Assembly: GCA_016861045.1 (NCBI GenBank)
Contig: BOKP01000004.1
Location: 1 to 64,000 of the forward strand
Reading direction: 5' to 3'
Length of the DNA: 64,000 nt
From: Actinomycetes bacterium
GTDB lineage: Bacteria > Actinomycetota > Thermoleophilia > Solirubrobacterales > 70-9
Under the pieces are notes generated by a model. It saw nothing but the letters and a program-made list of their open reading frames with translations. It did not search any database and was not told the origin of the DNA. Both the position numbers and the translations under genes were made by a program. Shown one piece after another: positions 2,446 to 19,916 of the stretch; positions within the stretch are counted from its first letter, which is position 1; every line of letters starts with the position of its first letter.

Positions 2446-2477
2446 CTCCGCCATCAGCTCATCGGTGCAGCGACGTA

Positions 2478-2512: not shown

Positions 2513-2531
2513 TAGCCAAGACCCGCTTGGT

Positions 2532-2567
2532 CAAGCGCCCTCCCGGAGTGGAGGCGCTTGTTGTTGG
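2532..2567 (+). terminator. factor-independent terminator-like hairpin behind the tRNA segment
   Basis: A stem formed by CAAGCGCC(C)TCC and GGAGGCGCTTG with a 6-nt loop and one bulged C is followed by TTGTTGG. It lies 19 nt after the tRNA 3' segment, where a tRNA transcript would end. The T-tract is weak. Confidence 0.55.
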
Positions 2568-2573
2568 GGGCGG

Positions 2574-2591
2574 GTCAAACGGTTGTCAAAC
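2574..2591 (+). repeat. paired heptamer GTCAAAC-N4-GTCAAAC, left copy
   Basis: Two direct copies of GTCAAAC start 11 nt apart, inside a larger dyad GGCGGGT...ACCCGCC (2569-2596). The same two heptamers with the same 11-nt phasing and same orientation recur at 17913-17930. One helical turn of spacing suggests adjacent protein-binding sites, for example arm-type integrase or excisionase sites. The function is inferred from repetition and position only. Confidence 0.55.
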
Positions 2592-2624
2592 CCGCCGGCC
2601 AGTTGCCGGTTCGCTTGTTCGACG

Positions 2625-5348
2625 CTACGGGCCGGCTTCTGATGGCTCGAGCAGCTTCCCGGCCTTGCTCCCAAACGCGTAGTCGACCTTGATCGCCTCA
2701 AAATGCCGGTGCCCGAACTTGATCTTGAGTTTCTCGTGCTCGAAGCGAAGCGACTCGAGATCGTCACCGCCCTTGGTTTCGCGAACCAGGTACAAGATGG
2801 TGTCCTCATCGACCTCCCGGACGATGGCCCAGTCGGGGTTGTAGCCGCCGAGTGGGGTCGGCACCTTGAACCAGGTCGGGAGCTTCAAGTAGAGCTTCAC
2901 GTCGTCGCGCTTCTCCAGGGCCGCGGAGAACTGGCGCTCGACATCCGAGTCGACTGGGAGCTTCGCGGTGATCGACTTCGAAGCATCAACGAGGTTGCGG
3001 TCGTACGCGTAGCCGACGTGTGTCTCGAACTGCTCAGCCTCCCACCTATCGTCCGGGATCGGGGTGTAGTGGATCGAGTCAGCGAGTTGCGCATGCAGCG
3101 CGCCAAGGATCGCGTCGGTGGCCAAATCCAAAAAGGCGGTCGGGTTCTCCCGAGCGTCGTCGACACGGCCGGACTCACGCAAGATGGTGGCGATGGTGGA
3201 GCGCGAGATTGGCACTCGGCGGCTCAGTTCGCCCAGAATGTCCGGGACTCGCTGAACCCCTGTGACGGCCTCCGCCGTGTGGTCGGTCGTCTGGTCGACC
3301 TTGACCCCGGACTCGATCCTCATCTCGAGCCTGCCTTCCCGCACGATGAACCTGATCGGCTCGATGTCCTCGGCTGCCTTAAGCCGACGGACTGCCTCCG
3401 CGACCAGGTTCGCGGTGTCGAACTGGAGCCGGTAAGTCGTGCGGGGCGAGATCCGCTCCCAGAGCTCTCTGAACTCAGACGACTCCAGCGCGCCGTCCTT
3501 CAGGTCGAGCCGCACTCGCTCGTCCTCATTGACTATGCGGTCGTCGAACTTGACTCCGGTCTCCTCCTCGATCTCGCTCTGGAGCGTGGCCGCGAACTCC
3601 TCGAACGCCTCGTTCGCGATCACGGTGAGGTGGTTGACCTGGTCCACCCTGCAGCGCTCCCCGTTGTCCATAACCGGGAGCCGCAGCCCACGCCCGATCT
3701 GCTGCCGCTTGCGCACCTCGGACTTCCCGTCCTGGAGGTTGCAGATCACGAAGACGTTCGGGTTGTCCCAGCCCTCGCCCAGCGCTGAGTGGGAGAAGAT
3801 GAAGCGCAGCGGCTCATCGAGGCTGAGCAGCTTCTGCTTGTCGCGCATGATCAACTCGAACGCTCGTGTCGCAGCCGCCGAGTCCCGCCCCTCCTGGGTG
3901 TCTTTGGCGACTCCTCGGTCCGTCGCGAAGTAGCCGTCGTGGACCTCAGCTGGGTCCGGCATCTTGAGGTGCACGTGCTTGCCGTCCGCGCGAACCGCCT
4001 CGTACTCCTCCTCGAACCACTGGCGGAACTTCGCGTCATCTGGAACGTAGTTTGCGACCCTGTCGATGAAGAACAGGGTCAGCGGCTTCGTCCGGCTGAT
4101 CACCCCGCGTCGCGCCCGGAAGTCCAGCTCGCGCTCGCGCTCGAAATGGGCCTCAATGGCCTGCCGGATCATCAGCCGCTGGAGCTGGTCGCGCCCGCCA
4201 TGGTCCGTCGACGAGCCCTCCTCGATTCGCCGGCCGTTGGCGAACTCGACGTATGCCGGGCTCCCATCTGGGCGGACGATGTCCTCGACGACCCAGCCCC
4301 GGTACACGGCGCGTCCGCCACTCTCCTGCTCGACGTCCAGGTCCTTGCGCAGCGTGATGTTGGTCGGCTTCGTCCCGATTCTCGTTTCCTTCTGAATCAC
4401 GGCGCTCGCCGTGACGCCCGTCGTCCCGCCTCGGACCTTCTTGACTTCGATTTCGGGCACGTTCGGGTCGTGCTCCTGGACGATCCCGCGCACCCCGATC
4501 CGCTTCACCAGCCGCAGGTCATAGGCGTCGACCGGCGTCAGCCGATACACGAGGTGCTTCAGATCCCGATGCGTTGCCGAGTAGCGCAGTTTGAAGAGGG
4601 GATCGAGCGATGCGATTGCCGCCTGCCGGGTCTCGGTCTCCATGTTCTGCGGCTCGTCCACAACAACGATCGGCCGGCAGGCGCGGAGGAACTCGATCGG
4701 CGCGCGCCCGTTCATCGCATCAGTTGAGCGGTTGATCACGTTCGCGTCGCTCGTGAACGAGTCGATGTTGATGATCATCAGCTGTAGATGGCTCGCCGTT
4801 GCGAACTGCCGCACCCGGTTCAGAGCGTTGCTGTCGTACACGTACGAGTCGAACTGAAGACCGTCGAAGAGCTCGCGGAGGTGATCGCGGACCAGCTCGA
4901 TGCTCGTCATCACGCCTTCGCGTATCGCGACCCGAGGAACGACGATCACGAACTTGCGGAACCCGTACCGGCGGTTGAGCTCGGCGATCGTGCGCAGGTA
5001 GACGTACGTCTTCCCGGTGCCGGTCTCCATCTCCACGCTGAAGTCGAGTGGCGCCTCACCATCGGGAATGTCCTCACGCAGAGATTCTGAGATCGGCGGT
5101 GACTCATCGGCGTCAGCCGACCCGTCTTGAACGGCGCGGAGGTTCCTGCGCAGCTGCTCCGCCGAGAGCGCGAGGCTGTTCCCGAACACGAGCTCAGTAA
5201 ATCCGGGCAGGGCGCCCGGCGCACCGTTCTCCCCTGGGAGGGCAGTCGTCTGCTCGACCGCCTCCTGGCCCTCAAACAGCTCGACGACCGCGTTGATTGC
5301 GTCGACCTGGTACCGCTGGTTGGCGTCGAACTTGATCTCGACGGCCAC
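2625..5348 (-). CDS. res: type III restriction-modification system, restriction (Res) subunit
   Basis: This 907-residue SF2 translocase-endonuclease cuts DNA when two inversely oriented unmethylated sites are met by the Mod-Res complex. Visible motifs in order: N-terminal Q-like region (FDANQRYQVDAI), Walker A METGTGKTYV (about residue 108), DEPQNM as motif II, SATHR motif III, SHSALGEGWDNP motif V and RKRQQIGRGLRLP motif VI. The C-terminal endonuclease has YNPDWAIV and LVRETKG, the PD...ExK core, near residues 840-870. All key residues are present, so it looks functional. Length is usual for Res. It starts 3 nt after mod stops, forming an operon with it. The next feature downstream is the element end. 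Confidence 0.93.
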   Translation of the reverse strand: MAVEIKFDANQRYQVDAINAVVELFEGQEAVEQTTALPGENGAPGALPGFTELVFGNSLALSAEQLRRNLRAVQDGSADADESPPISESLREDIPDGEAPLDFSVEMETGTGKTYVYLRTIAELNRRYGFRKFVIVVPRVAIREGVMTSIELVRDHLRELFDGLQFDSYVYDSNALNRVRQFATASHLQLMIINIDSFTSDANVINRSTDAMNGRAPIEFLRACRPIVVVDEPQNMETETRQAAIASLDPLFKLRYSATHRDLKHLVYRLTPVDAYDLRLVKRIGVRGIVQEHDPNVPEIEVKKVRGGTTGVTASAVIQKETRIGTKPTNITLRKDLDVEQESGGRAVYRGWVVEDIVRPDGSPAYVEFANGRRIEEGSSTDHGGRDQLQRLMIRQAIEAHFERERELDFRARRGVISRTKPLTLFFIDRVANYVPDDAKFRQWFEEEYEAVRADGKHVHLKMPDPAEVHDGYFATDRGVAKDTQEGRDSAAATRAFELIMRDKQKLLSLDEPLRFIFSHSALGEGWDNPNVFVICNLQDGKSEVRKRQQIGRGLRLPVMDNGERCRVDQVNHLTVIANEAFEEFAATLQSEIEEETGVKFDDRIVNEDERVRLDLKDGALESSEFRELWERISPRTTYRLQFDTANLVAEAVRRLKAAEDIEPIRFIVREGRLEMRIESGVKVDQTTDHTAEAVTGVQRVPDILGELSRRVPISRSTIATILRESGRVDDARENPTAFLDLATDAILGALHAQLADSIHYTPIPDDRWEAEQFETHVGYAYDRNLVDASKSITAKLPVDSDVERQFSAALEKRDDVKLYLKLPTWFKVPTPLGGYNPDWAIVREVDEDTILYLVRETKGGDDLESLRFEHEKLKIKFGHRHFEAIKVDYAFGSKAGKLLEPSEAGP

Positions 5349-5351
5349 GGC

Positions 5352-7055
5352 TCAGACCGTCTTCATCGCGATGCCGGCTTGCTGGCAGGCGTAGAACGCG
5401 TTCGCCTTCGAGGAGTCGTTGTTCGCGAACCCATCCTCGAGGAAGACGAGGACGCGGGGCTTGAGCTCCAGTGCGGCTTCGACAACTTCCTCGGTCAGGT
5501 CCAGACCGAGGACAATTGCGACGTCGTGGCAGCGCACGACGTCCACGCCAGCGGCTTCGAGCCACTCCCAGGGCTTATCGAGGCGAACGCCCTCGCTGAG
5601 AAGAATCTCGGCGGCGAGATCCGGCCCTTCTGCGTTCCCTCGAATTAGAGTCAAACCCGAGAGATCAAGCTCAAGATTCTCATCATCAGCAATACGGAAG
5701 TTGCTCTCCTCGAGGGAAAAGATCCGCAGCCCTTGCTCTTTGGCCCCAACCACGCCTGCCATTACCTTCGCAATCCTGGAGATTGCGATGTCGTTGACGG
5801 ATTGGTAGCCGGCTTGGAAAGCCTCCGAGGTGTCGTCGAGCGGCTCCGGAATGTTGACGCTGATGCAACGTCGGCGCCCACCGTCCGCTGAGTTCTGGTC
5901 GAGCACTGCGTGTGCCGTGCTGCCCGATCCAGCGAAGAAGTCCAGGACAACGTCATCGTCACTAGTTGTTGCTTCGATAATGCGCCTGAGCATCTTGACT
6001 GATTTCTGGCCTTTGTACTCCTCGTTCACGCCAAGCAGCTTGGAAACCTTCTCTCCGGAGAAGGATACGATCGCGATGCTGTTCAGGTCGTCGTACTCGT
6101 TGCTGTTCCAGGTATCCTCGATCGGGTAACGATCAGGGCGATTCTCGTGGTTAATGAAGTTCAGTAACTCTGCCTGAGCAGCTTTGTCGAGACCAAGCTC
6201 ATCGAGCTTCGCAGTGACCGTGGAGTCCTTCTTGAGAAGCGGCTTAAAGTGCTCGTTCTCGATGTACTTCTTGATAAAGCCAACCTGGTCTGGATCCCGG
6301 GAATAGAACAACATGGTGTCGTGATTGCGAATAAAGTTGTTCGCCTGCGTCTTGTAGCCTGAGAGCCAGCCGATCCGCCAGATGATTTCCCGCTGAAAGT
6401 TCGTCTCACCAAAGACTTCGTCCATAAGCAGTCGCAAGCTGGCGACTTCGTTGAAGTCAATGCTCACAAAGATGGCGCCATCCTGCGTAAGCAGGTTGCG
6501 TGCGAGCACCAGCCTCGGGTACATCATCGATAGCCACCGGCTGTGCTTCCGCCCGCCCGTCTCGGCGTTGGCCGATCGCATCGCGCCCTCCTCATCCACC
6601 TGCCCGGTGAAGTCGAGATACCCCCGGAGCCCATCCGAGAAGTCGTCGTTGTAGACGAAGTCGTTCCCGGTGTTGTACGGCGGATCGATGTAGATCAGCT
6701 TGACCTGGTCGTTATAGGCCTTCTGGAGCAGCTTGAGGACCTCGAGGTTGTCGCCCTCGATGAAGACGTTCTCGGCGGTGTCGAAGTCGACCGACCGCTC
6801 GAGGTCGGGGACGAGTGCGGCTCGGCTCGGCGTGAGCAGCGACCGCACTGCCTCGTTCTTCCCCGCCCACATGAGCCCGTAGCGTTCGGCGCCCTCCTTG
6901 AGGCCGGCGACCTCGGTCCCGGTGAGCTCGCCCAGCCGTGCGGCGTCGAGCACGCCGTCGGCTACGACCCCCGGGAATCGCTCCTCGAGCGCAGCGAAGT
7001 TCTCCGCGGCTAGATCCGGGCTTCCGATCTCGACCTTCTCTGGCTCATCAGACAC
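5352..7055 (-). CDS. mod: type III restriction-modification system, methyltransferase (Mod) subunit
   Basis: This 567-residue adenine-N6 DNA methyltransferase provides sequence recognition for the type III complex and protects host DNA. The catalytic motif IV is LIYIDPPYNTGNDF (about residue 125), and the SAM-binding motif I, VLDFFAGSGSTAHAV, comes later (about residue 375), the beta-class order of type III Mod enzymes. The region between holds the target-recognition domain, the variable part. The 5' end ATG at 7055 is followed by an acidic leader. mod precedes res on the same strand with a 3-nt gap. Its start faces the helicase-nuclease gene at 7153 across a 97-nt shared promoter region. Confidence 0.94.
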   Translation of the reverse strand: MSDEPEKVEIGSPDLAAENFAALEERFPGVVADGVLDAARLGELTGTEVAGLKEGAERYGLMWAGKNEAVRSLLTPSRAALVPDLERSVDFDTAENVFIEGDNLEVLKLLQKAYNDQVKLIYIDPPYNTGNDFVYNDDFSDGLRGYLDFTGQVDEEGAMRSANAETGGRKHSRWLSMMYPRLVLARNLLTQDGAIFVSIDFNEVASLRLLMDEVFGETNFQREIIWRIGWLSGYKTQANNFIRNHDTMLFYSRDPDQVGFIKKYIENEHFKPLLKKDSTVTAKLDELGLDKAAQAELLNFINHENRPDRYPIEDTWNSNEYDDLNSIAIVSFSGEKVSKLLGVNEEYKGQKSVKMLRRIIEATTSDDDVVLDFFAGSGSTAHAVLDQNSADGGRRRCISVNIPEPLDDTSEAFQAGYQSVNDIAISRIAKVMAGVVGAKEQGLRIFSLEESNFRIADDENLELDLSGLTLIRGNAEGPDLAAEILLSEGVRLDKPWEWLEAAGVDVVRCHDVAIVLGLDLTEEVVEAALELKPRVLVFLEDGFANNDSSKANAFYACQQAGIAMKTV

Positions 7056-7152
7056 TGCGCTCTCCTCCGCCGCCGACCGCGGCGCGCATCAGGCTAGTCG
7101 CTCGCGCGTGCGAGCGTCTGACGAGCTCGCTCGTGCCGTATCGTGGGACTCG

Positions 7153-9921
7153 ATGGAGCGCGCGGGGGACAACGACGGCCCGCCGGCTCTCGAGGGCGAG
7201 GCCGCGAAGGCCGTCGCCCATCGGGGTGGCCACACCCAGATAATCGCCGGCGCGGGCTCGGGTAAGACCGAGGTCGTCTCCCAGCGCGTCGCCTCGCTGG
7301 TCTCGGACGGTGTCAACCCCTCGGCGATCGTCGCCTTCACCTTCACCGACAAGGCTGCCACGGAGCTCAAGGAGCGGATTCGTGCCCGCGTGGAAGATCG
7401 GATCGGTGCCGAGGCGACGGATCGGCTGGGTCAGCTCCAGGTCTCAACGATCCACGCGTTCTGCTTCCGCTTACTCCAGACCCACGTCCCGCTGTTCGAG
7501 ACGTACTCGGTGCTGGACGAAAACCAGCTCGTGTCGTTGCTCTCGCGGGAGGGCGGGTCGAGCCGGCTCGATCTGAAGCGGTTCGGGCCCGGGGGCCGCA
7601 AGTTCAAGGGGATCGATCGGTTCCTGAAGGCCGTCGACGTTGTCGAGAACGAGTTGCTCGACCCAGACAACCTCCCCGACGACGAGTTCAAAGAGACGCT
7701 GTTCGCGTACTACGAGGTGCTCGAGCGCTACCGCGCAATGACCTACGGCCTCCAGATCGTGCGCGCGGTGCGGACTCTCGAGGATCCAAAGCTACACGCG
7801 CAGATCACGGCGGGCCTGGAGCACCTGATCGTCGACGAATACCAGGACATCAACCCGGCCCAGGAACGGCTGATCGGCCAGCTTGCCAAACCGGTCGGCA
7901 GCGCCGACCTGGTGGTGGTCGGCGATGACGACCAGGCGATCTACCAGTGGCGCGGGTCAGACGTGACGAACATCGTCGCATTCCGTCACCAGGGCAGATA
8001 TCCGGACGCCACGCAGTTCAGGTTGCTCGTGAACCGGCGCTCGCGCCCTCCGATCGTCGAGGTGGCGAACTCGTTTGTGGAAACGATCTCCGAGCGGCTC
8101 GAGAAGACGATGCAGCCTGACCGAGCCGAGCTGGGCCCCTCCGTCAACGTGGCCGAGGGATTCGCGAGCGAAGAGGAGGAAGCCGACTTCCTCGCGATGA
8201 CGATCAAGAACCTCGCTGATCAAGGCGTCCCGTACCGCGCCATGGCGGTCTTGGTCCGTGGCAAGGTCGCATATAGGCGGATCCTCGAGGCGTTCGCCGC
8301 GTACTCGATCCCGGTGCAACCGGGCGGGCGCTCGGGCCTGTTCGAGCAGGGTGAAGCAGCGGCGCTGGGTGCCACGTTCGCGTGGCTCGCCGATGTTGAC
8401 TGGGCGGCGAATCGGTACGACCAGCGGGAGGAGGTGCGCCTCGCGGATCTTGTCGCGCTACATGCGGGGGTGTTTGACCTTGAAGACGAGGCCCAGGGTG
8501 AGCTGCGGTCCCAGCTCGAGCAGTGGAAGCAGCGCGTCCCGAGCGAGGCAGCGGACGTCGACCTGATCGGCGAGCTTTATGACTTGCTGGCGCTGCTTGG
8601 CGTGCGCTCCTGGGACCTCGACGAGCAGACGCTCAGAAACCGGCTCGGCACGATCGCGCGTTTTGCCGCGGTCCTCGCCGATTACGAGTCCGTAACCCGG
8701 CGGGCCAGGCGCGACGCCAACAACCCGGGCGAGCAGGTCGGGGGACAGGGGCGCGGCGAGTGGTACTACAAGAACCTCGCAATTCTGCTCGTCAACTACG
8801 CGACCGGCAACTACGACGACTTCGACGGTGAGGCCGGCGACATCACCGACGCTGTCGACCTTGGCACCGTGCACGGTGCTAAGGGTCTTGAGTGGCCAGT
8901 CGTCTTCCTCCCGTCGCTCACGGACGGGCGGTTCCCCTCGAGCAGAGTCGGAGAGCGTGGGGACTGGCTGGTGCCGCGCCAGCTGTTCGATGCGCCGCGG
9001 TATGAGGGCACGGACGACGACGAACGCCGGCTTTTCTACGTCGCGCTAACACGGGCCCGTGACTGGGTCGGCCTCTCCTCGCACCGGCGGGTCAACAAGC
9101 AGCAGCGCGCTCCGTCCCCGTATCTAACACACGTGGCCGAGAGCGTCGAGTCCCCGGGGCTCCCCGACCCGGATGCGCTCGAGTTGGCCGGTTACGAACC
9201 GGAGCTCGCGATCACGTACAGCGATCTGGCCGCATACCGATCGTGCCCGCGGAGTTACCTGCTTCGCACCCGTCTCGGGTTCCTGCCGCCGGTTGCGACG
9301 GAGCTTGGCTATGGGAACGCGGTCCACCACCTGATGCGGGCCGTCGCCGAGCGCGCTCGTGAGAAGGGCGAGCTGCCGACTCCGCGCGAGATCAACGAGC
9401 TGCTCAACACGGACTTCTTCCTGCCCTTCGCAAACAAGGCGGCGCACCGGGAGATGAAGGAGCGGGCACGGCGGCTGGTCTTCAAGTACGTGCGCAACCA
9501 TCCCGAGGACCTGATGCGGACCTGGGCGACCGAGCGCCCGTTCGAGCTTTACCTAGACGGCATCGTCGTCAGTGGCCGTGCGGACGTGATCTACGACGAG
9601 CATCACGGCCAGGCCGACAACCTCGCCATCGTCGACTACAAGACTGCGACTAAGGAGGAGGTGGACCCGCTCCAGCTCCAGGTCTACGCAGATGCGGGAC
9701 GACGAGAGGGCTTGACGGTGGGAGCCGCGTTCGTCCACGACATGAACGCGGCTGAGCGGCATTCCGTTTCAGTCGACCAGCCCGATGTTGAGGCTGCCGA
9801 GGCGGAGGTTCTAGAGCTTCGGGACGGCTTGCGGAGCCGCGACTTCGCGCCGAAGCCCGCGCCTACCAAATGCAGCCGGTGCGACGTGCGCAAGATGTGC
9901 AACGCCGCCGTGCTCAGTTGA
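7153..9921 (+). CDS. UvrD/AddA-like SF1A helicase fused to Cas4-type Fe-S nuclease
   Basis: The 922-residue protein begins MERAGDNDGPPALEGEA; this ATG is chosen because Walker A (AGAGSGKT, residues 32-39) then sits at the usual distance from the N-terminus. Helicase motifs follow: VDEYQDINPAQ (II), GDDDQAIYQWRG (III), GTVHGAKGLEWPVVF (V), FYVALTRARD (VI). From about residue 690 a PD-(D/E)XK nuclease is fused: a cysteine in SCPRSYLL, GRADVIYDE, AIVDYKT, and CSRCDVRKMC at the C-terminus, giving the four Fe-S cysteines seen in AddB and Cas4. It probably unwinds and degrades DNA ends. It diverges from mod and its last 8 nt overlap the convergent helicase gene at 9914. Its position suggests a defence role, which is inference. 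Confidence 0.88.
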   Translation: MERAGDNDGPPALEGEAAKAVAHRGGHTQIIAGAGSGKTEVVSQRVASLVSDGVNPSAIVAFTFTDKAATELKERIRARVEDRIGAEATDRLGQLQVSTIHAFCFRLLQTHVPLFETYSVLDENQLVSLLSREGGSSRLDLKRFGPGGRKFKGIDRFLKAVDVVENELLDPDNLPDDEFKETLFAYYEVLERYRAMTYGLQIVRAVRTLEDPKLHAQITAGLEHLIVDEYQDINPAQERLIGQLAKPVGSADLVVVGDDDQAIYQWRGSDVTNIVAFRHQGRYPDATQFRLLVNRRSRPPIVEVANSFVETISERLEKTMQPDRAELGPSVNVAEGFASEEEEADFLAMTIKNLADQGVPYRAMAVLVRGKVAYRRILEAFAAYSIPVQPGGRSGLFEQGEAAALGATFAWLADVDWAANRYDQREEVRLADLVALHAGVFDLEDEAQGELRSQLEQWKQRVPSEAADVDLIGELYDLLALLGVRSWDLDEQTLRNRLGTIARFAAVLADYESVTRRARRDANNPGEQVGGQGRGEWYYKNLAILLVNYATGNYDDFDGEAGDITDAVDLGTVHGAKGLEWPVVFLPSLTDGRFPSSRVGERGDWLVPRQLFDAPRYEGTDDDERRLFYVALTRARDWVGLSSHRRVNKQQRAPSPYLTHVAESVESPGLPDPDALELAGYEPELAITYSDLAAYRSCPRSYLLRTRLGFLPPVATELGYGNAVHHLMRAVAERAREKGELPTPREINELLNTDFFLPFANKAAHREMKERARRLVFKYVRNHPEDLMRTWATERPFELYLDGIVVSGRADVIYDEHHGQADNLAIVDYKTATKEEVDPLQLQVYADAGRREGLTVGAAFVHDMNAAERHSVSVDQPDVEAAEAEVLELRDGLRSRDFAPKPAPTKCSRCDVRKMCNAAVLS

Positions 9922-11218
9922 GGGGGGCTACGCGGCCTTCCTTCTCGAGCATGGCCCAGTAGCGCATGTGCGCGTCGTGGCCCCGGCCTACGGCGTCGGG
10001 CTTGCCGGGTGCTTGCTCGGCGCTCGGAACGAGGTTCGCGAGCGTTTCGGGCACGTGGTCGCGCGTGATGAGAATGTGCGCCGCTTGATGGCGCGACGCC
10101 ATGACGCAGAGGCGGCCGGTATCGAGGTCAAACGCCGTAGGGGCGGTAACGCCGCTCATCGGGTGAACCGCGAGCATCACAGGGCGCTCGACGCCCTGCC
10201 ACCTCTCGGGCGTGTCGACGCGGACGCCGCGAGCGCGCCCGCCGAGGACGGACTCGATCGCCGCGTTCATCATGCGGTGACTGCTCGTGATGCCAAGGTC
10301 GGTCGCGACCAGCTCGCGAGGTTCGCCGACCGAGCGCACGGTAGCATCGCTTGCCAGCAGGTCAACGACCAGCTCGGCGGCCGCAGCCGCAAGCTCTTGA
10401 TCGACCTCGAGCGGCGGCCCAGCTGGCGGCGTGGGGAGGGTTACGGCGAGTGGGCGTCCGTCCGCCAGCTCTTGGAGGCGGTGGCTCGCTGGCAAATCGA
10501 CGCCGCGCTCACCAGGGCCGACGTACGGCGCGAAGTTGAAGTCGTAGAACGGCATTATGTACGGGACGGCCTCGAAGGGGAGCCGGCGGCAGGCGGGGAG
10601 CGAGCCCGCGTACCCATCCTTCATCAGCGCCTCGTCGCCGAGGACTACGTCTGGCGCCGCTGCGTGTGGGCTCCGAGGGGATGTCTCCCAGCGCCGGACG
10701 TCGATTGTCACCACAGGCGGGATCTGCCCCGGATCACCGATGAGCAGGAACCGCTCGCTCACCGTCGCGCACTGCATGAGGTCAACCCAGGCCATCTGCC
10801 ACGCCTCGTCGACCGCGAGCACATCAAAGGGCCGGTCGACGTCCACGAGGGCCCACTTGGCCGATGTCGAGACCACCACGCCCTCCGCGCCGTGCAGGTC
10901 CCTGGTGGCCGTGGTCCAGGCTGCGCCGCTCGGGAAGTCCGGGGGTGGGGGGTGGCCCTGGCTCGCGAATCGCGTCAGCGGCACGGAGGGATCGGTTTCG
11001 GCCAGACGGCGCCAGATGTCGTCTGCCTGCGTGTTCGTTTGAGCGGCGACAGCGATTCGGAGATCTGTGGCCAGGCGCGTGAGCGTGCGGATCAATGTGT
11101 GCGTTTTTCCGGAGCCGGGTGGCGCCTTGACGACGCCCAGGCGACCGCCGTCGGCGTAGTGCTGGGCCAGGTCGCTCTCGACCTGCGCGACGGCCGCGTC
11201 CAGCTCCGCTGTGGTCAC
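9914..11218 (-). CDS. SF1B (Upf1/Dna2-type) helicase, compact
   Basis: The 434-residue protein has APPGSGKTHTL (Walker A, about residue 32), VLAVDEAWQM (Walker B), LLIGDPGQIPPV (motif III), RWQGVERPVML (motif V) and VMASRHQAAHILI (motif VI). These are motifs of SF1B helicases such as Dna2, Upf1 and RecD-like enzymes. At 434 residues it is short: it lacks the N-terminal nuclease and beta-barrel regions found in Dna2. Genes with those kinds of sequence lie immediately upstream in the same operon. Its start overlaps the stop of the 11215-12774 gene by 4 nt. The 3' end overlaps the convergent UvrD-type gene. Helicase assignment is firm; substrate and pathway are not known. Confidence 0.85.
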   Translation of the reverse strand: MTTAELDAAVAQVESDLAQHYADGGRLGVVKAPPGSGKTHTLIRTLTRLATDLRIAVAAQTNTQADDIWRRLAETDPSVPLTRFASQGHPPPPDFPSGAAWTTATRDLHGAEGVVVSTSAKWALVDVDRPFDVLAVDEAWQMAWVDLMQCATVSERFLLIGDPGQIPPVVTIDVRRWETSPRSPHAAAPDVVLGDEALMKDGYAGSLPACRRLPFEAVPYIMPFYDFNFAPYVGPGERGVDLPASHRLQELADGRPLAVTLPTPPAGPPLEVDQELAAAAAELVVDLLASDATVRSVGEPRELVATDLGITSSHRMMNAAIESVLGGRARGVRVDTPERWQGVERPVMLAVHPMSGVTAPTAFDLDTGRLCVMASRHQAAHILITRDHVPETLANLVPSAEQAPGKPDAVGRGHDAHMRYWAMLEKEGRVAPLN

Positions 11219-12774
11219 CGCGGCTCGTCCTCGATCTGAACGACGTCGTCAACGATCTCGTCTGGCGTGTCATTCGCGATGTCCGCGAGGATCTGCACTC
11301 CCGACCTGCCATGGGTCAGCCAGCCTCCTGGGCCGTCCTTGGCCTTCCAGACGCGGTGACTTCGCCGCCGGGTCAGCTCGGCGGCGTCATCGGCGACGAA
11401 GGCGATGGATTCGCCGACCCAGGTTTCGTCCGCTGGCTTGCCCCCGATTCCGGTCGCCAGCGGTTTCGTCTTGCGGCCGCTCCACTCGATCACGATCTGG
11501 AGCTGGCCGTCCCGCTCGATAGTCCGTACGGCCGCCCAGTGGCCGGCCGAACCCCTCGGAACGATGCGCCCGCCCTCGCGGATCCGATGCAGCGTGTCGC
11601 TGGCGAGTTCGATCGTCCACACCGGCCGGGTCGAGCGCCCTTCGCCTTCGTCGGTGACAGCGAGGACCCGGCCGTGGATGGCGCGGCCGTCTCCAATGGC
11701 CTCTTCGAAGAGGACGTCGTCGTCGTGGATCAGGCAGTTGATGTAGGCCTCGTCCGACGCGCAGTGGAACAGGTATCGGGAGGCAGCGGCCGACCCGTGG
11801 TGGTCGGTCTCGGGGTGGGGGATGAAGGGCGGGCCGGTTGTCTGGTCTGAGCGCTTCAGCTCCCTGGCCTGACACTGCCAGTAGAACTCGCCGAGGGCAA
11901 CGCGGACGAGCTCGTCGACGCCGGGGTTGGTGGGACGATCGGAATTGGCCAGGACGTCATAAGCCTGCTCGCAAAGGCGCCACCTCCGTTTCAGCTCCGC
12001 AATCAACACAGCTGCGATCTCAGCCTCAACCGAATCCACGTCGGCACCCTCGCGGAGCAAATCCCGACGCTTCGCGAGCGGGCCGTCGAGCTCGTCGCGC
12101 TCGAGGTTCGGATCCATGGTCGGCGAGACCGGGAACGCTTCTGCTACTTCGGCTGCCGCCATGCGGGTCGGACGATCCCCGTCAGTGAGCAGCCACCCGA
12201 GCAGATAGCCGAGGTGTGCCTGCCGGGCGTCCTGGGCCGGGAAGGCGTACGCCTCGCGCAGCGCCTTGCTCGCGTCAATGACGTGTTGGCTACCGGATCG
12301 GTTCGAGTCCCGAAACAGCCACCCTGCGAGGCGCCCCAGTGCGTTCAGGAGGTCGACGTTTGCACCGCCGAACGTGGTCTGTGAATACGCGTAATCCAAC
12401 TGGTGGAACATCGCGACGTGTTGGCCGTTCGGCACCCAGACCTGCCGGAGATCGCTCGGGTCGGCATCCTGGTACAGGGGGTTGATGGTCCAGTTCTCGA
12501 CGCGGAGGTGCTCGAGTAGTGCCTCCCCGAACTCCACCGCTATCTCTGCTACGTCATCGCGGATCCTCCCGTCCGGAACGCTGGCGATGACCGGCTCGTC
12601 TTCGGGATGTCCCCACGCGATGCCCCATGGCCGGGACTCTCCAGCCATCCGGACGAAAGCCACGATCAACGTTTCGCCGGGGCGTGCGACCGCATGGTGC
12701 AGCGTCGAGTAGCGCTCGACGGGCCGGCCCGCCTCCCAGGCACGAAGTCGACGGGCAACTTCGACGACCGTCAC
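11215..12774 (-). CDS. uncharacterised protein, middle gene of nuclease-helicase operon
   Basis: I do not recognise this 519-residue protein. It has no signal peptide or membrane segment. Residues about 1-330 are mainly helical by composition, with a possible dimer or partner surface (GRLAGWLFRDSNR, ALREAYAFPA). Residues about 345-490 look beta-rich: AYINCLIHDDDVLFEEA, IHGRVLAVTDEGEG, PVWTIELASDTLHRI, LQIVIEWSG. This alternation recalls the barrel domain inserted in Upf1/Dna2-type helicases, which the following gene lacks. It overlaps its neighbours by 4 nt on both sides, so the three proteins are probably made in fixed ratio. The barrel assignment is a guess that needs structure prediction. 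Confidence 0.7.
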   Translation of the reverse strand: MTVVEVARRLRAWEAGRPVERYSTLHHAVARPGETLIVAFVRMAGESRPWGIAWGHPEDEPVIASVPDGRIRDDVAEIAVEFGEALLEHLRVENWTINPLYQDADPSDLRQVWVPNGQHVAMFHQLDYAYSQTTFGGANVDLLNALGRLAGWLFRDSNRSGSQHVIDASKALREAYAFPAQDARQAHLGYLLGWLLTDGDRPTRMAAAEVAEAFPVSPTMDPNLERDELDGPLAKRRDLLREGADVDSVEAEIAAVLIAELKRRWRLCEQAYDVLANSDRPTNPGVDELVRVALGEFYWQCQARELKRSDQTTGPPFIPHPETDHHGSAAASRYLFHCASDEAYINCLIHDDDVLFEEAIGDGRAIHGRVLAVTDEGEGRSTRPVWTIELASDTLHRIREGGRIVPRGSAGHWAAVRTIERDGQLQIVIEWSGRKTKPLATGIGGKPADETWVGESIAFVADDAAELTRRRSHRVWKAKDGPGGWLTHGRSGVQILADIANDTPDEIVDDVVQIEDEPR

Positions 12775-13841
12775 AGGCTCTCCAGTTGACGCTGAAGATC
12801 CGCTTCTCGATCATCGGCAGGCTCCGCCCCGTTCATCAGTTCGACTGCGCGGCTAAGCGTTGTCTCGCCGAGTAGGCGGGCCGCCTCCTCGCCCAAGACG
12901 AGTCCGTGCTCCTTCTCGATGTGGGTCTTGTGACATCGGGGCGCCAGGTCGCAGAACGAAAGGCAAGCCTCCGAGTAGGCGGTGTCGGCCTCAAGAACGC
13001 GCTGAATGAGCTGCGGTGCGTCGGCCGAGAAGTCGTCGTCACGCACGAGCAACCCGGCCACCTCCTCGAGTCGATCGAAGCCACGTGCCGCGCGTACCGC
13101 CTGGTAGCTGAGATCCTCTCCGGGTCTGATCGACGGTTGGTTCGACCCCGGCCACGTGAAAACCAGGAACCCGTCGCGGGCAACGTTGAGGTCAGCGGCC
13201 CAGCCGCCGGCATCGACCGCCATCTCAAGCGCATGGCGGTAAAGACCGGCCTGCGCTCGCGCCGTCGCAAGCTCGCGGGCGTCGGTGTGCCCGCCGCGGT
13301 CCGGGAATACCTTGATCTCGCCGACGGTGAGCGTAGGTTTGCCGTCCTCCACGACCACGGTGACCGCGTCGATGATCAGGAGCGCCTCAGGGAGGATCAC
13401 CCCGCGCGGGATCTTGATCATCGGTGCTGCGACGATCGAGGCGGGCTGGGGGTCCCCCTCGCTAAGACCCTGCAGCCAGGTCTGAGTCGCCGCTAGCGCG
13501 TCGTCCACTGCGGCCAGGCGAGACCCGCCGTTCATCTTCAGGCGCAGGTCGAGGAACCCAGCTGAGCCTTCGGGCAGACAGGCTCTTCGCTCGAGCGCGG
13601 CGCGCAACCGGCTCGCGTCCTCGGCAAAGAGCCCCCACTCGAAGTTGTTGCCGCGCGCGAGGGCGAACGGGGACTGGCCGAATGAGGGCTTCAGCCCGAT
13701 GGCCTCGGCTGCCTTGTCCAAGCGGACGTTGTGAACCGCCGAGAGCGTGTTCGCGGCGCAGGTGGGGTTCTTCGCCCACTGCTCGAACCGAGCGCGCGTG
13801 TTCCGCCGCGCCTCCTCCCGAGTCTCGTCCACCTCCGTCAC
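12771..13841 (-). CDS. Cas4-like PD-(D/E)XK nuclease with probable Fe-S cluster
   Basis: The 356-residue protein shows a nuclease core at residues about 150-215: LLIIDAVTVVV followed by LTVGEIKVFPDRG and then TARAQAGLYRHAL, i.e. D...ExK plus the motif IV-type Q-x-x-x-Y helix of RecB/Cas4 nucleases. A cysteine near residue 28 (NPTCAANTL) and the group CLSFCDLAPRCHKTH near the C-terminus supply four cysteines in the Cas4/AddB arrangement. It is the first gene of a three-gene operon whose members overlap by 4 nt (ATGA). A free-standing Cas4-like nuclease next to an SF1B helicase reproduces the parts of Dna2. No adaptation genes or CRISPR array lie nearby, so a Cas role is unlikely. Confidence 0.75.
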   Translation of the reverse strand: MTEVDETREEARRNTRARFEQWAKNPTCAANTLSAVHNVRLDKAAEAIGLKPSFGQSPFALARGNNFEWGLFAEDASRLRAALERRACLPEGSAGFLDLRLKMNGGSRLAAVDDALAATQTWLQGLSEGDPQPASIVAAPMIKIPRGVILPEALLIIDAVTVVVEDGKPTLTVGEIKVFPDRGGHTDARELATARAQAGLYRHALEMAVDAGGWAADLNVARDGFLVFTWPGSNQPSIRPGEDLSYQAVRAARGFDRLEEVAGLLVRDDDFSADAPQLIQRVLEADTAYSEACLSFCDLAPRCHKTHIEKEHGLVLGEEAARLLGETTLSRAVELMNGAEPADDREADLQRQLESL

Positions 13842-13927
13842 CCCCAGGATCGTGGCAGAGGGGGCCGCGGAATTCCGCTGCCAAGGGGGGCGTGAAACGG
13901 CGTGCAGGAGTTCTTACGGATGAGATC

Positions 13928-14380
13928 GTGATCTGTCGCCTCTCATCCGACCGTGGGGCCCTCGGAACTATGTTCTGTTGGCACCCTCGATATGAACTCG
14001 GCCACGAGCAATTCCACCACGGCTCGCACATGGATGAACGGGAGGACGAGGACGGGCTCGTATGGCAGTGGAACAACCTCGACAATGTGACGGCTTGGCT
14101 CGAAGTTGCGCGTGGTGCGATCGAGACCGTGCCGCTGTACCTCTACGAGCACGGAGCGCTGTTGCTCACCACCGAGGATCCGCGGCTCTCGATCGATCCG
14201 GGTGGCTGGGACACGACCGCCGTCGGCTTCATCTACACGACGCGCGAGCGAGTCGCCGAGCGACTTCGGCTCAACCCCGCCGGGTGTCGCGGCACTCGGG
14301 GGCAGTGGGTGCGGGAGGCGTTGCGCGACGAGGTCCGCGAGTACTCGCTCGCTCTTGACGGCTTGGTGTCCGCCTCTTAG
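13928..14380 (+). CDS. conserved phage/plasmid-type protein (CWHRRYxLG family)
   Basis: The frame encodes LGTMFCWHPRYELGHEQ, later VPLYLYEHGALLLTTEDP, then GWDTTAVGFIYTTRERV and a C-terminal REALRDEVREYSLAL. I recognise this pattern from small proteins of phages and plasmids that read 'LGTMVCWHRRYNLGDEQ ... LPLYLYDHSG ... GQVGFIYVTREKV ... EVETYDQYL'; their function is unknown to me. The start is uncertain: GTG at 13928 keeps the family core, while GTG at 13892 would add 12 residues. No strong ribosome-binding site decides. Its stop overlaps the convergent integrase stop by 4 nt. It supports a mobile-element origin for this region. Confidence 0.6.
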   Translation: MICRLSSDRGALGTMFCWHPRYELGHEQFHHGSHMDEREDEDGLVWQWNNLDNVTAWLEVARGAIETVPLYLYEHGALLLTTEDPRLSIDPGGWDTTAVGFIYTTRERVAERLRLNPAGCRGTRGQWVREALRDEVREYSLALDGLVSAS

Positions 14381-15557
14381 CGGTCCAGCGCCTGGGCTGA
14401 TCCCACGAGCTCCGCCACCTGCACCGCGGCCTCCGCCTGCATCCCCGGCACCACATGCGCGTACTGCCTCAGCGTGAACGCCGGCGACTCATGCCCGAGG
14501 CGCTCGCTGATGACTTTGACCGGGACGCCGGCCTTGATCGCGATCGTCGCGTGGGTGTGGCGGAGGTCGTGGAGCCGGATCCGGCGCAGGTCGGCCTTGG
14601 CGACGATGCGGTCGAACGCCTGGCTGAAGCTCTGCGGGTGGAGCGGCTCGCCGTTCTCCTTCGCGACCACGAGGTCGCCGTCGCGGTAGTCGCTGCCCCA
14701 TAAGTCGCGCTCGGCCTGCTGGCGGGCGCGGTGCTCGCGGAGCAGCGCGACGGTCTCGGGATCGAGGTCGACGACGCGCGCCTGGTGGCTCTTCGGGGAG
14801 GCCTCGAGGATCGCGTAGCTGACGGTCACGACGGCGTTTCGGACCGAGAGCCGCGCGGCTTCGAGGTCGATGTCTGCCCAGCGCAGGCCGAGGACCTCGC
14901 CGCGGCGCATGCCGGTCATCACTACGAGGCGCCAGGCGGCCTCAAGCCGCGTGCCGCGCACCGACTCCAGGAATCGCGCGAGCTCGTGCGGCTCCCAGCA
15001 GCAGATCTCGCGCCGCTGGTGGCGGTTCGGCCGCGGCGGCTTCGCCCGCTCGGCGACGTTCGCTGCAGGATGCCTGAATCCACGGCGTCTGAGAGCGCCT
15101 TGTGGATCGTCGCGTGGATGTAGCTCACGGTCTTCGGGGTGAGCGGACCACGCTCACCGCCGCGGGCGAGGAGCTCGCCGTAGAGCGCGTTCAGGTGTGC
15201 CGTGGTCAGCTGCTGGAGCGGCCGCGCGCCGAGCCTCGGGAGCACGTGTGTCTCCATGCTCGAGCGGTACGAGTCGAACGTGCTCGGCTTGATCCGCGCC
15301 TCGATCATCGGTAGCCAGCTCGCGCGGACCCACTCGGCGAGCGTCGTCCGGTCGGGGGCGACGTAGGAGCCTGAGTGGAGGTCGTTGACGAGCTTCGCCC
15401 GGGCGACCTCGGCCTCGCGGCGGGTGCGAAAGCCGCCGTGCCACTTCTGGCGCCGGCGGCCATCCGCGTCGCGGCCGGTGTCGAGGACGACGTACCAGCG
15501 GGTTGTCTCCGTGCCGTTGCTCGCCCTGCGGACGCGCTTGTGGATATGGCCGCGCAT
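14377..15557 (-). pseudogene. int: tyrosine recombinase/integrase, frameshifted
   Basis: Two reading frames together make one phage-type integrase. The first (15557 to about 15060) has the AP2-like/arm-binding start MRGHIHKRVRRASNG and the SAM-like core-binding domain ending ATIHKALSDAVDSGILQR. The second (about 15060 to 14377) continues NVAERAKPPRPNRHQRREIC and carries the complete catalytic set: R in TGMRRGEVLGLRW, HDLRHTH, ERLGHES and the nucleophile Y in LRQYAHVV. Continuity needs one extra base near 15056-15062 (coding strand CAGCGAACG). Either the gene is inactivated by a 1-nt deletion or this is an assembly error. It lies directly behind xis with a 1-nt overlap. Confidence 0.85.
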
Positions 15558-15757
15558 CAGTGGGCCTCGAGCCAGGAGAGAAGGGCGGGGACGAGGACGA
15601 CGAGCCGGCGCCCGAGTCGGCGGGTCGGGAACTCGCCGCGGCGGGCGGCCTCGTAGGCGGCGGTCCGCCCGAGTCCGAGCAGTCGCGCGGTCTGCTCAAT
15701 CGTGATCGTCGCCTTGCCGGCAAGCTGGTCGAGCCGGGGTTGCGTAGCCTGTTTCAT
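15557..15757 (-). CDS. xis: excisionase-type HTH DNA-binding protein
   Basis: The 66-residue protein contains a MerR-like winged HTH: TITIEQTARLLGLGRTAAYEAARRGEFPTRRLGRRLVV. This is the excisionase/HTH_17 family, whose members bend DNA at attachment sites and steer integrases toward excision. It lies directly upstream of int; its TGA overlaps the int ATG (TGATG), so both are made from one transcript. A C-terminal LVPALLSWLEAH helix completes the fold. Length is typical. Confidence 0.82.
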   Translation of the reverse strand: MKQATQPRLDQLAGKATITIEQTARLLGLGRTAAYEAARRGEFPTRRLGRRLVVLVPALLSWLEAH

Positions 15758-15834
15758 GTCGGACCTCCTAGTCAGGTTCCGGCCGGGCCCCGGGGTGTTC
15801 GCGCACCGCCGGGGCCGACTTCTTGGTTCTGAGC

Positions 15835-15867
15835 GTCCGTCGGACGGAACTGTCTATGTCCTTAGAC
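15835..15867. promoter_or_regulatory. two dyads between xis and the divergent HTH gene
   Basis: GTCCG-T-CGGAC (15835-15845) is a perfect dyad and GTCTA-N6-TAGAC (15852-15867) is a second. They sit in the 114-nt gap between the divergent xis and HTH start codons, where operators would be expected. The second ends 4 nt before the HTH start codon. Binding by either HTH protein is inferred. Confidence 0.45.
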
Positions 15868-15871
15868 GCCG

Positions 15872-16075
15872 ATGGCGCCCCGGGTAAACACCGAGGATCT
15901 GATCGACGCGCATGAGGTGGCGGAGATCCTCGGCCTGTCGCACAGCAACTCGGTCAGCCTCTACCAGCGCCGCTACGCGGACATGCCGCGGCCGGTCGTG
16001 GAGCGGGGAGGCGGGAAGACCAAGCTCTGGCTGGGCCCGGAGATCGAGCGGTGGGCTCAGGATCGGGGAGCGTGA
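15872..16075 (+). CDS. small HTH (AlpA/excisionase-like) regulator
   Basis: This 67-residue protein starts MAPRVNTEDLIDAHEVAEIL and continues LGLSHSNSVSLYQRRYADMPRPVVERGGGKTKLWLGPEIERW. This is a single MerR/AlpA-type winged helix as found in phage and island regulators and excisionases. It is transcribed away from xis-int across a short gap with two palindromes, so it may control the switch between them. It has no second domain. The HTH identification is good; the regulatory target is inferred from position. Confidence 0.72.
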   Translation: MAPRVNTEDLIDAHEVAEILGLSHSNSVSLYQRRYADMPRPVVERGGGKTKLWLGPEIERWAQDRGA

Positions 16076-16143
16076 TGCGCTCGCAGCTTCGTGTCCGCTC
16101 GGGTGAGTCGTCGGGCACCTGGTCTTGCAGCGGTCAGGGGAGC

Positions 16144-16171
16144 TTGCCCGCCGTCCACTGGCGCGTATACA
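16144..16171 (+). promoter_or_regulatory. sigma70-type promoter for the NYN/GIY-YIG operon
   Basis: TTGCCC (16144-16149) and TATACA (16166-16171) are separated by 16 nt. This is one of the best -35/-10 pairs in the accessory region, and it points to the NYN gene about 100 nt downstream. A small hairpin CCCCG-TCGT-CGGGG followed by CCTTTG at 16186-16204 lies in the predicted leader and could act as an attenuator or stray terminator. Confidence 0.5.
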
Positions 16172-16274
16172 CTTTCCGCACTGCTCCCCGTCGTCGGGGC
16201 CTTTGTGCCCGGATTGGCGGGGATTATCTCTTTCAGCGGCGGAACGCTCTGCGTCCGGGAACTACGATCCTGCG

Positions 16275-16895
16275 ATGGCCGCTCGCGTCGCCGTCTTCCT
16301 CGACTACCAGAACGTCTACATGGGCGCTCGGAGCGCCTTCCACGCTCATGGCACTGCCCACCAAGATGGGCAGATCGATCCGTGTCGCTTGGCCAAGCTC
16401 CTTGTCTCGAAGGGCCCGCCGGATGTCGATCGCGAGCTGAGCGAGGTGCGCATCTACCGCGGGCAACCCGACCCCCAGAAGGATCCGCGGGGATACGCAG
16501 CCAACGATCGCCAGTGCAATCACTGGCGCACCCTGCCGAACACGACGGTCATCACGCAGACGTTGCGGTACCCGTACGGCTGGCCGCGAGAGAAAGAGCA
16601 GGAGAAGGGGATCGACGTCAAGCTCGCAATTGACCTCGTGGCCGGCGCCGTGCGCCGCGACTACGAGGTTGCGATCCTCATGTCGACCGATACGGACCTG
16701 AAGCCAGCCCTTGAGTTTGTCCGCGACCTTGAGGGCAGGCCGTATCCGCGCTGCGAGGTCGCCGCGTGGTCGTCGTCCGACAGCTACTCGCGGCGGCTGA
16801 GCATCCCAGGCCGTCAGATCTGGTGCCACTGGCTCGTCGAGTCTGATTACCGGTCCGTTGCCGACCCGACGAACTACGCGGAGCCTCTCGAGTAA
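16275..16895 (+). CDS. NYN-domain (PIN-like) ribonuclease
   Basis: The 206-residue protein begins MAARVAVFLDYQNVYMGARS, where the D-x-Q-N is the first metal-binding acidic site of NYN domains. EKGIDVKLAIDLVAGAV and AILMSTDTDLKPALEFV carry the second and third acidic positions. NYN proteins are metal-dependent endoribonucleases of the PIN superfamily (LabA/Limkain-b1 type). ATG at 16275 is chosen because the core strand starts right there. It is the first gene of a set with a GIY-YIG-like gene 3 nt behind it. No membrane segment. It probably cuts RNA, perhaps as a defence or toxin nuclease, which is an inference from the neighbourhood. Confidence 0.82.
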   Translation: MAARVAVFLDYQNVYMGARSAFHAHGTAHQDGQIDPCRLAKLLVSKGPPDVDRELSEVRIYRGQPDPQKDPRGYAANDRQCNHWRTLPNTTVITQTLRYPYGWPREKEQEKGIDVKLAIDLVAGAVRRDYEVAILMSTDTDLKPALEFVRDLEGRPYPRCEVAAWSSSDSYSRRLSIPGRQIWCHWLVESDYRSVADPTNYAEPLE

Positions 16896-16898
16896 CCC

Positions 16899-17624
16899 AT
16901 GCCCTCCTCGGTCAGGTCGATCTTCGCCGCCGCAGAGCTCGAGCCGGATGGCTCGGTCAGCTGGGGCGAGCCGATCCCGGCGCCGGAGTCGGGACCCACA
17001 ACCGGCGTGTACGCGATAGCCGTGACAGCTGACGTCGGCGCCAGAGACAACCCGCACCCGATCTGCCCGCGTTCCGAGAACGCGCTCAACGCCCTCCTCA
17101 CTGCCCGACCGGAACTCCGCCTGGACGGCGAGAGGCCGGATCCCGAGTCGCTCGCCGACCGGCTCGCAGCGTTCTGGTTGCGTGACGCGCCTGTGCTGTA
17201 CATCGGCCTCGCCGGCCCGCGCAGGAGCGCAGCAAGGCCGGAAGAACTGTCGGACCGGGTTGCCGAGTACTACGCGACCCCGCTCGGGGCACGGTCACCG
17301 CACGCCGGTGGGTGGCCGCTCAAGGCGCTCTCCATCCTGGACGACCTCGTCGTCCACTACGCCTACTCCTCGGATGTCGCTGGTGCTGAGCGGGCGATGC
17401 TCAAGGCGTTCGCGGCCGCTGTTTCGCCGACCGCTGCGACCGACATTCATGACCCCGATCATGTGATGCCGTTCGCAAACCTCGAGCATCCCCCTGGGGT
17501 TCGGAAGGGTCACGGGATCAGCGGAGCCACCGAGCCACGGCGACGCAAACGCAGCAGAGGCGACGGCACCGGTTCTCGGGTCGCCCGCCTCGAAGTCGGC
17601 CCCGCCCACCAGCGCGCCGCTTGA
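16899..17624 (+). CDS. GIY-YIG-like nuclease family protein
   Basis: This 241-residue protein has GVYAIAV followed by PVLYIGLAG, the two strands of a GIY-YIG endonuclease, then LSDRVAEYY (Arg position), AERAMLKAF (metal-binding Glu) and MPFANLEHP (Asn). That order fits the GIY-YIG fold, with a long insertion between the Y-I-G strand and the acidic helix. The last 50 residues are basic (RRRKRSRGDG) and probably disordered. It starts 3 nt after the NYN gene and is almost certainly co-expressed with it. The family call is moderate because the motif spacing is wide. Two different metal-dependent nucleases in one transcript suggest a joint system. Confidence 0.62.
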   Translation: MPSSVRSIFAAAELEPDGSVSWGEPIPAPESGPTTGVYAIAVTADVGARDNPHPICPRSENALNALLTARPELRLDGERPDPESLADRLAAFWLRDAPVLYIGLAGPRRSAARPEELSDRVAEYYATPLGARSPHAGGWPLKALSILDDLVVHYAYSSDVAGAERAMLKAFAAAVSPTAATDIHDPDHVMPFANLEHPPGVRKGHGISGATEPRRRKRSRGDGTGSRVARLEVGPAHQRAA

Positions 17625-17640
17625 CACGCCGGATGGGTCG

Positions 17641-17907
17641 ATGACGCAAGTCGTCACCGAAGGCGATCGAAACAGTGGCATCATCCGAATTCCGAGGGAA
17701 GCGAAGCGCCTGTTCCCGGCGGCGAAGGCACGTGTCAAGGTGGAGCTGCGCGGCGAGGACATCGGCGACCGTCGGTGGGATCCGCGCGCTGGCCCTGACC
17801 GGGAGAGGTCAGGCGTCCTCGGGGTCGGGAAGCCAGCGGCCCAGGGCCTCGCCGTGGGGGTCAGATTGGTCGTAGCGCGAACGAAGGACGGGGTTCGACT
17901 CAGGTGA
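17641..17907 (+). CDS. small beta-rich protein of unknown function
   Basis: The 88-residue product (MTQVVTEGDRNSGIIRIP...) has a pattern I associate with small beta-barrel DNA-binding folds: SGIIRIPREAKRLFP, RVKVELRG, RRWDPRAGPDRERSGVLGVGK and VGVRLVVART. It lies 16 nt behind the GIY-YIG gene on the same strand and could be the third member of that operon. The gene ends 5 nt before the right-hand GTCAAAC pair. No family is named with confidence; it could also be the N-terminal remnant of a larger restriction-type protein. Confidence 0.5.
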   Translation: MTQVVTEGDRNSGIIRIPREAKRLFPAAKARVKVELRGEDIGDRRWDPRAGPDRERSGVLGVGKPAAQGLAVGVRLVVARTKDGVRLR

Positions 17908-17912
17908 TCCGT

Positions 17913-17930
17913 GTCAAACGCACGTCAAAC
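17913..17930 (+). repeat. paired heptamer GTCAAAC-N4-GTCAAAC, right copy
   Basis: Two direct GTCAAAC copies begin 11 nt apart (17913 and 17924), the same orientation and phasing as at 2574-2591, 15.34 kb away. Unlike the left copy it is not inside a large dyad. It follows a sequence GGGGTTCGACTC (17890-17901) reminiscent of a tRNA T-arm but without a stem. I read it as the right end region of the integrated element. Confidence 0.55.
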
Positions 17931-18049
17931 GAACCGCGACGGACGGGGCGGTTTCGAGACGGAGGGACGGACGATTCTGGGCCGGAATCCCGCACGAACA
18001 AGCGGTTCACCCGGATCCAGCCGAACGGGCGATGACGCTCCCTCCCGGC

Positions 18050-18568: not shown

Positions 18569-18587
18569 ATCTGCTCTGATCTACGAA

Positions 18588-19229: not shown

Positions 19230-19231
19230 CC

Positions 19232-19912: not shown

Positions 19913-19916
19913 CTAG

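Follow-up and report, generated by a model that had tools for sequence, protein, structure and literature searches.

Introduction

Dna2 is an essential eukaryotic enzyme. In its single chain, an Fe-S nuclease, a barrel with its stalk and a superfamily 1B (SF1B) helicase follow one another; the barrel, which superposes on Ighmbp2, is carried by a two-helix stalk and lies between nuclease and helicase (PMC4716839). Stalk and OB barrel have been said to typify the UPF1/DNA2-like family as a whole (PMC11090510). The one characterized bacterial counterpart of Dna2 cited here, Bad, is sporadic and its role is unknown (PMC7430649). Here, we analyzed a three-gene operon in a 64,000-nucleotide (nt) stretch, called the window throughout, of contig BOKP01000004.1 from an Actinomycetes bacterium (GenBank assembly GCA_016861045.1; Thermoleophilia, Solirubrobacterales). 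A first-pass annotation had read the operon as a Dna2-like enzyme split into parts, its three genes encoding a Cas4-like Fe-S PD-(D/E)XK nuclease, a middle protein with a beta-rich C-terminal half and a compact SF1B helicase of the Upf1/Dna2 type. It had assigned the enzyme "probably for defence" because a type III restriction-modification (RM) system and a second helicase-nuclease lie alongside.

The reading of the operon as a split Dna2-like helicase-nuclease is well supported by the helicase profile, the fold ranking of the barrel half and the co-conservation of the genes, and we give it a probability of about 0.6. The 434-residue protein would act as an SF1B motor core of Upf1/Dna2 type. 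The stalk and the 1B-type barrel would come from the 519-residue protein, a separate subunit with an additional N-terminal domain, and the 356-residue protein would be the Fe-S (iron-staple) RecB-family nuclease. We infer that the three assemble into one complex. The parts themselves are of known kinds; what appears to be new is the three-gene division, in which the barrel forms a subunit of its own. We found no description of the trio in the profile and structure libraries or in the freely accessible literature searched. If the reading is correct, bacteria would have a common Dna2-like activity that is near-universal in antibiotic-producing Streptomyces and open to easy genetics, and the barrel of Upf1-family motors could work as an independent subunit that can be exchanged. 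Two protein families without a name in Pfam, NCBIfam or PADLOC would also gain a function.

Results and Discussion

Three overlapping genes are conserved together

The open reading frame (ORF) listing of the window contains all three genes on the minus strand where the first-pass annotation had placed them (Table 1), and the 4-nt overlap that it described is present at each junction. The nuclease/middle junction reads CTGTGACG, with the nuclease stop TGA within the GTG start of the middle gene, and the middle/helicase junction reads CGGTGACC with the same GTGA stop/start arrangement. The middle gene is present as a single copy in the source genome. Many junctions among the relatives overlap by 4 to 16 nt, and a 4-nt overlap between nuclease and middle gene is common.

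We scanned 84,980 species genomes with the helicase and obtained at least 491 relatives, from which we took the best 80 loci for neighborhood analysis; the 69 of these with more than 3.2 kb upstream of the helicase were informative. The order nuclease-middle-helicase was kept in 66 of the 69, from Acidimicrobiia, Actinomadura, Nocardia, Nonomuraea, Streptomyces and two sphingomonads, and this recurrence in one order is far beyond chance. In the 67th, a Viridilinea locus (Chloroflexota), the middle gene is present and the nuclease only in fragments. The three gene trees are congruent (Spearman of distances 0.84-0.90), and an accessory Streptomyces lineage forms a clade with support 1.0 in all of them. 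The three genes are thus conserved together in other genomes.

The helicase resembles an SF1B motor core

The motifs PPGSGK, DEAW, GDPGQ, QG and SRH of the helicase are invariant or nearly so across 27 relatives, and the protein matches AAA_11 in Pfam (E 9e-13). A profile of the 27 relatives matched SMUBP-2 (5e-18), DNA2 (3e-15) and NAM7/UPF1 (1e-12) in the PDB, whereas the match to RecD2 was far weaker (9e-8). The helicase has 34 residues ahead of the Walker A motif, which leaves no room for a barrel or stalk; by comparison, a single-chain Upf1-like protein of the same phylum (L151) has about 210. The profile match starts at SMUBP-2 residue 193, in the RecA1 domain. Together, the short N-terminus and the start of the match point to an Upf1/Dna2-type motor without its accessory module, and by profile the protein is an SF1B RecA1-RecA2 core lacking the N-terminal barrel and stalk, in agreement with the compact helicase of the annotation. 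In PADLOC it matches only generic helicase models. Another match of the 434-residue protein, PDB 9kwf, is a helicase from an acidophile that has been investigated for nanopore applications; we set it aside as uninformative on function.

The nuclease carries iron-staple cysteines

Cysteines C28, C293, C297 and C303 of the nuclease are invariant in 26/26 aligned relatives, a diverse set. The catalytic residues are kept in most of them (D158, 24/26; E175, 22/26; K177, 25/26; Q197, 24/26; Y201, 24/26) and form the motifs E175-I-K177 (E175-x-K177) and Q197xxxY201. This cysteine pattern, with Cx3Cx5C spacing, is of the iron-staple type known from AddB, Dna2, Cas4 and Bad (PMC7430649). Judged by these motifs, the protein is a RecB/Cas4-type PD-(D/E)XK nuclease with iron-staple cysteines, and the alignment bears out the annotated motifs. 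We obtained no match for it in Pfam, NCBIfam or PADLOC and no convincing one in the PDB; Pfam PDDEXK_1 was touched weakly by 4 of the 26 relatives (best E 0.0015). It also matched no Cas4 model, and the adaptation genes to which CRISPR Cas4 is linked, Cas1 and Cas2, were absent from the window genes scanned.

The middle protein contains a predicted stalk and barrel

Sequence searches of Pfam, NCBIfam, PADLOC and the PDB gave no relative of the middle protein. We modelled this protein by AlphaFold2 with 36 relatives (mean predicted local distance difference test score 84.5; predicted template modelling score 0.83). The model shows an alpha/beta N-terminal part (about residues 1-200) without known relative, long helices at 222-361, a six-stranded beta barrel at 365-461 and a low-confidence tail. 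The six strands (365-375, 384-390, 403-406, 413-422, 424-433 and 456-461) agree with the beta-rich C-terminal half of the annotation. In a Foldseek search with the whole protein, Sen1, Senataxin, Ighmbp2 and flavin-reductase barrels were among the top matches. When residues 214-469 were run against 350,542 PDB chains, the top seven were Senataxin (two chains), Sen1 (three entries) and Ighmbp2 (two entries), with 141-189 aligned columns, E 0.0057-0.04 and probability 0.75-0.99. A search of viral structures gave nothing usable. We read this region as a candidate stalk and 1B-type barrel because the seven best-ranked structures all belong to the family of the adjacent motor and align over the very part that this motor is without; this agreement is the main evidence. 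An unrelated known enzyme was not seen, the helix-plus-barrel half ranking Upf1-family helicases first.

Several observations weigh against a split Dna2-like enzyme. All Foldseek E-values for residues 214-469 exceed 0.001 and are individually non-significant, the small barrels of ferredoxin reductase, HerA and F1-ATPase rank just behind the Upf1-family matches, and Dna2 is not among the 50 matches listed. The middle-protein profile shows no link to any 1B domain, nor to the single-chain bacterial Dna2-like proteins compared, which come from Actinobacteria and join an Fe-S nuclease, RNase_H_2 and a helicase. The catalytic glutamate E175 is substituted in 4/26 nucleases, so that some of them may be inactive and nuclease activity may not be universal. 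The remaining two of the 69 informative loci, from Micromonospora (L073 and L114), have the helicase with neither partner detected nearby.

The middle protein might instead be unrelated in function, for example in DNA-site recognition or regulation via its N-terminal domain, and its barrel likeness would then come from the commonness of small barrels. The low individual significance of the Foldseek matches, the reductase, HerA and F1 barrels that come next and the N-terminal 200 residues without known relative are all in keeping with this. Small barrels alone, however, would have to account for seven top matches from one helicase family, that of the neighboring gene, over aligned columns that exceed the barrel, and the neighboring helicase lacks exactly the barrel/stalk part; we consider this explanation unlikely. 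The barrel is structurally closest to RNA/DNA helicases, and the complex could have RNA or RNA:DNA hybrids (R-loops) as its substrate, in the manner of Sen1, Senataxin and Upf1, instead of DNA ends. This seems very unlikely for a partner of an iron-staple RecB-family nuclease, the characterized members of which (AddB, Dna2, Cas4 and Bad) cut DNA (PMC7430649).

For a split Dna2-like enzyme, membership in SF1B and the analogy with Dna2 and bacterial Bad suggest a motor that would translocate along single-stranded DNA in the 5′ to 3′ direction and thread it through the Fe-S nuclease. By the same analogy, the nuclease would cut 5′ flaps or tails at DNA ends or stalled forks.

Comparison with described helicase-nucleases

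The part order of the trio is that of DNA2, the nuclease has four iron-staple cysteines and RecB motifs as in DNA2, and the helicase profile matches DNA2. The predicted long helices and barrel of the middle protein may correspond to the stalk and barrel that DNA2 has between nuclease and helicase. DNA2 is one polypeptide, whereas the trio consists of three separate ORFs with stop codons and GTGA overlaps. Unlike DNA2, the middle protein has about 200 extra N-terminal residues and no detectable sequence similarity, the cysteine spacing is Cx3Cx5C, and we identified no N-terminal OB domain. Bad of Geobacillus, which we compared by description, likewise combines an iron-staple nuclease with an SF1B helicase, with a conserved central region between them (PMC7430649), but in one chain. 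IGHMBP2/SMUBP-2, Sen1, Senataxin and Upf1, which gave the best helicase profile matches and the best fold matches of the barrel half, differ from the trio in holding barrel, stalk and core in one chain, without a linked Fe-S nuclease. Helicase-nucleases of the AddB/AdnAB and UvrD-PD-(D/E)XK types, one of which adjoins the operon, also combine a RecB-family nuclease with an SF1 helicase; their UvrD-type motor is SF1A and in one chain, whereas the trio has an SF1B Upf1-type motor and the nuclease as a separate gene.

CoCoNuT type II/III restriction systems similarly are operons with an Upf1-like helicase, coiled-coil proteins and nucleases, but in their helicase CnuH the OB barrel and stalk are part of the same chain, and they are defined by McrB/McrC-type CnuB and CnuC (PMC11090510). 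The trio includes no such partner; the only other gene consistently linked to it encodes a fourth protein (see below), which has no McrB/McrC match, and no such partner is annotated in plasmid locus L042.

Distribution favors a role in genome maintenance

The middle gene was found in 79 of 81 sampled Streptomyces genomes, which were assigned to the genus by loci matching named Streptomyces contigs at the nucleotide level. The Streptomyces loci, whose neighborhoods were compared group by group, have a histidine phosphatase, PAP2, Prim-Pol and GGDEF-EAL as conserved neighbors. Because of this core distribution we favor a genome-maintenance role, and in Streptomyces the trio probably serves DNA maintenance in general. 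So stable and housekeeping-like a pattern does not support "probably for defence" as a statement on the trio at large. Some Streptomyces carry second copies. One genome has two equal-scoring copies of the middle gene near both contig ends (G704:C1:21498-22946 and 10654192-10655640), arranged as if in terminal inverted repeats.

If the trio were primarily an anti-phage or anti-plasmid system that unwinds and degrades invading DNA, its near-ubiquity in Streptomyces would reflect a fixed defence gene set. The setting of the window copy is consistent with this. Positions 2000-20000 of the window have a GC content of 60-70%, compared with about 70-80% beyond, and this low-GC stretch carries the type III RM, UvrD-nuclease, trio, integrase, NYN, DUF5343 and HEPN_Swt1 genes. 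The trio is absent from both other sampled genomes of the source genus; in the source class, the middle gene occurs in 2/299 genomes and the nuclease in 3/299. Extra Fe-S nucleases adjoin the trio in the closest relatives, and the accessory Streptomyces trio has Wadjet jetABCD directly downstream in 6/8 loci. These trio-Wadjet elements are, however, nearly identical and so do not count as independent cases, and 79/81 Streptomyces with stable neighbors is unlike patchy defence genes. The trio matched no described anti-phage defence system in PADLOC-DB 2.0.0, and its nuclease and middle protein matched no model there. We therefore regard a primarily defensive trio as rather unlikely. Under the preferred role in genome maintenance, island copies such as that of the window may have been recruited beside restriction systems, and the window copy may serve defence. 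The trio is not an evident phage module: the helicase found no match in phage records and, like the middle protein and the fourth gene, none in viral contigs.

Table 1. Positions of the trio, its sub-features and linked genes. Positions without a locus prefix refer to the window.
Feature	Position	Strand	Remark
Nuclease subunit	12771-13841	-	356 aa (amino acids)
First Fe-S cysteine of nuclease, C28	13758-13760	-	
C-terminal Fe-S cysteine triad of nuclease, C293-x3-C297-x5-C303	12933-12965	-	
GTGA overlap, nuclease stop / middle gene start	12771-12774	-	4 nt
Middle subunit	11215-12774	-	519 aa
Proposed stalk and 1B-type barrel of middle subunit, residues 214-469	11368-12135	-	Foldseek
GTGA overlap, middle stop / helicase start	11215-11218	-	4 nt
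Helicase subunit	9914-11218	-	434 aa
Type III RM, res	2625-5348	-	PADLOC REase_III 2e-245
Type III RM, mod	5352-7055	-	PADLOC MTase_III 2e-140
UvrD helicase + PD-(D/E)XK nuclease, C-terminal CxxCx5C	6898-9921	+	convergent neighbor
Fourth gene, examples	L042:2318-3163; L036:12226-13101; L049:4606-5445		plus 42 other loci
Plasmid variant	L039:8053-13134		R. erythropolis PR4 pREL1
Plasmid variant	L040:7674-13134		M. avium plasmid
Acidimicrobiia Fe-S nuclease/RNase H-like gene	L027:7059-8744	-	
Acidimicrobiia Fe-S nuclease/RNase H-like gene	L046:2730-4439; L047:5680-7365; L048:2131-4047		
Wadjet jetABCD downstream of accessory Streptomyces trio	L042:7362-14021; L078; L082; L088; L099; L111		

Neighborhood of the operon in the window

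The type III RM genes (2625-7055, minus strand) and the second helicase-nuclease (6898-9921, plus strand) do lie alongside the trio, as the first-pass annotation had noted; we treat the RM system as genomic context only. The 3′ end of the helicase gene overlaps the end of the convergent UvrD-nuclease gene by 8 nt. The UvrD-nuclease is a possible associate of the trio because a homologue adjoins the helicase in the closest relative too (L045:2723-5437, 44% identical), there in the opposite relative orientation.

A tyrosine integrase gene (14377-15557, minus strand) appears split into two overlapping ORFs (14377-14961 and 14922-15557), so that the element may be immobile. Window positions 19906-19963 are 97% identical to part of a tRNA-Arg(ACG) gene (G000:C2:73596-73654); the window copy is 4 nt shorter at the 5′ side, as at an attachment (att) site. 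Elsewhere in the window, we detected no second, att-like copy of this tRNA-Arg end.

Variants and linked genes

In 45 loci, both sphingomonads included, the gene immediately ahead of the nuclease encodes a fourth protein of about 280 aa, with a coiled-coil-like N-terminus and the motif SLRRDEERSF; this gene often overlaps the nuclease gene by 4 nt. The protein has no convincing Pfam match, and its gene was undetected in the window, its closest relatives and the core Streptomyces loci.

On Rhodococcus and Mycobacterium plasmids, the helicase is preceded by a shorter relative of the middle protein, and MoxR-type AAA and DUF2201 VWA genes take the place of the nuclease. Plasmid searches with the middle protein and the nuclease gave nothing at E 1e-3; the helicase query exposed these variants and located the helicase on 26 Rhodococcus plasmid records. 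We also considered the plasmid protein ahead of the helicase as a nuclease and rejected this, since the alignment identified it as the short relative of the middle protein. The short relatives from plasmids and Euzebya match the middle profile mainly over its C-terminal, barrel-containing half (E 2e-7 to 7e-13), and for this reason the barrel protein and the helicase look like the core pair. A tentative view, which falls somewhat short of probable, is that the stalk-and-barrel is a separate, exchangeable subunit and the nuclease form a core, hitherto undescribed genome-maintenance complex of Streptomyces. The core pair would team with the Fe-S nuclease on chromosomes, joined by the coiled-coil protein in many lineages, and with the MoxR-VWA pair on Actinobacterial plasmids. 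A helicase of the same family at L033 has, like those of Micromonospora, no middle or nuclease gene detected nearby.

The place after the helicase also varies. In Acidimicrobiia it is taken by a gene that, by motif, combines a Cas4/TM0106-like Fe-S nuclease part (CxxCx5C) with an RNase H-like part and resembles the non-helicase half of the single-chain Dna2-like proteins. In the window and in an RBG_16_64_13 relative, a UvrD-PD-(D/E)XK gene occupies this place instead.

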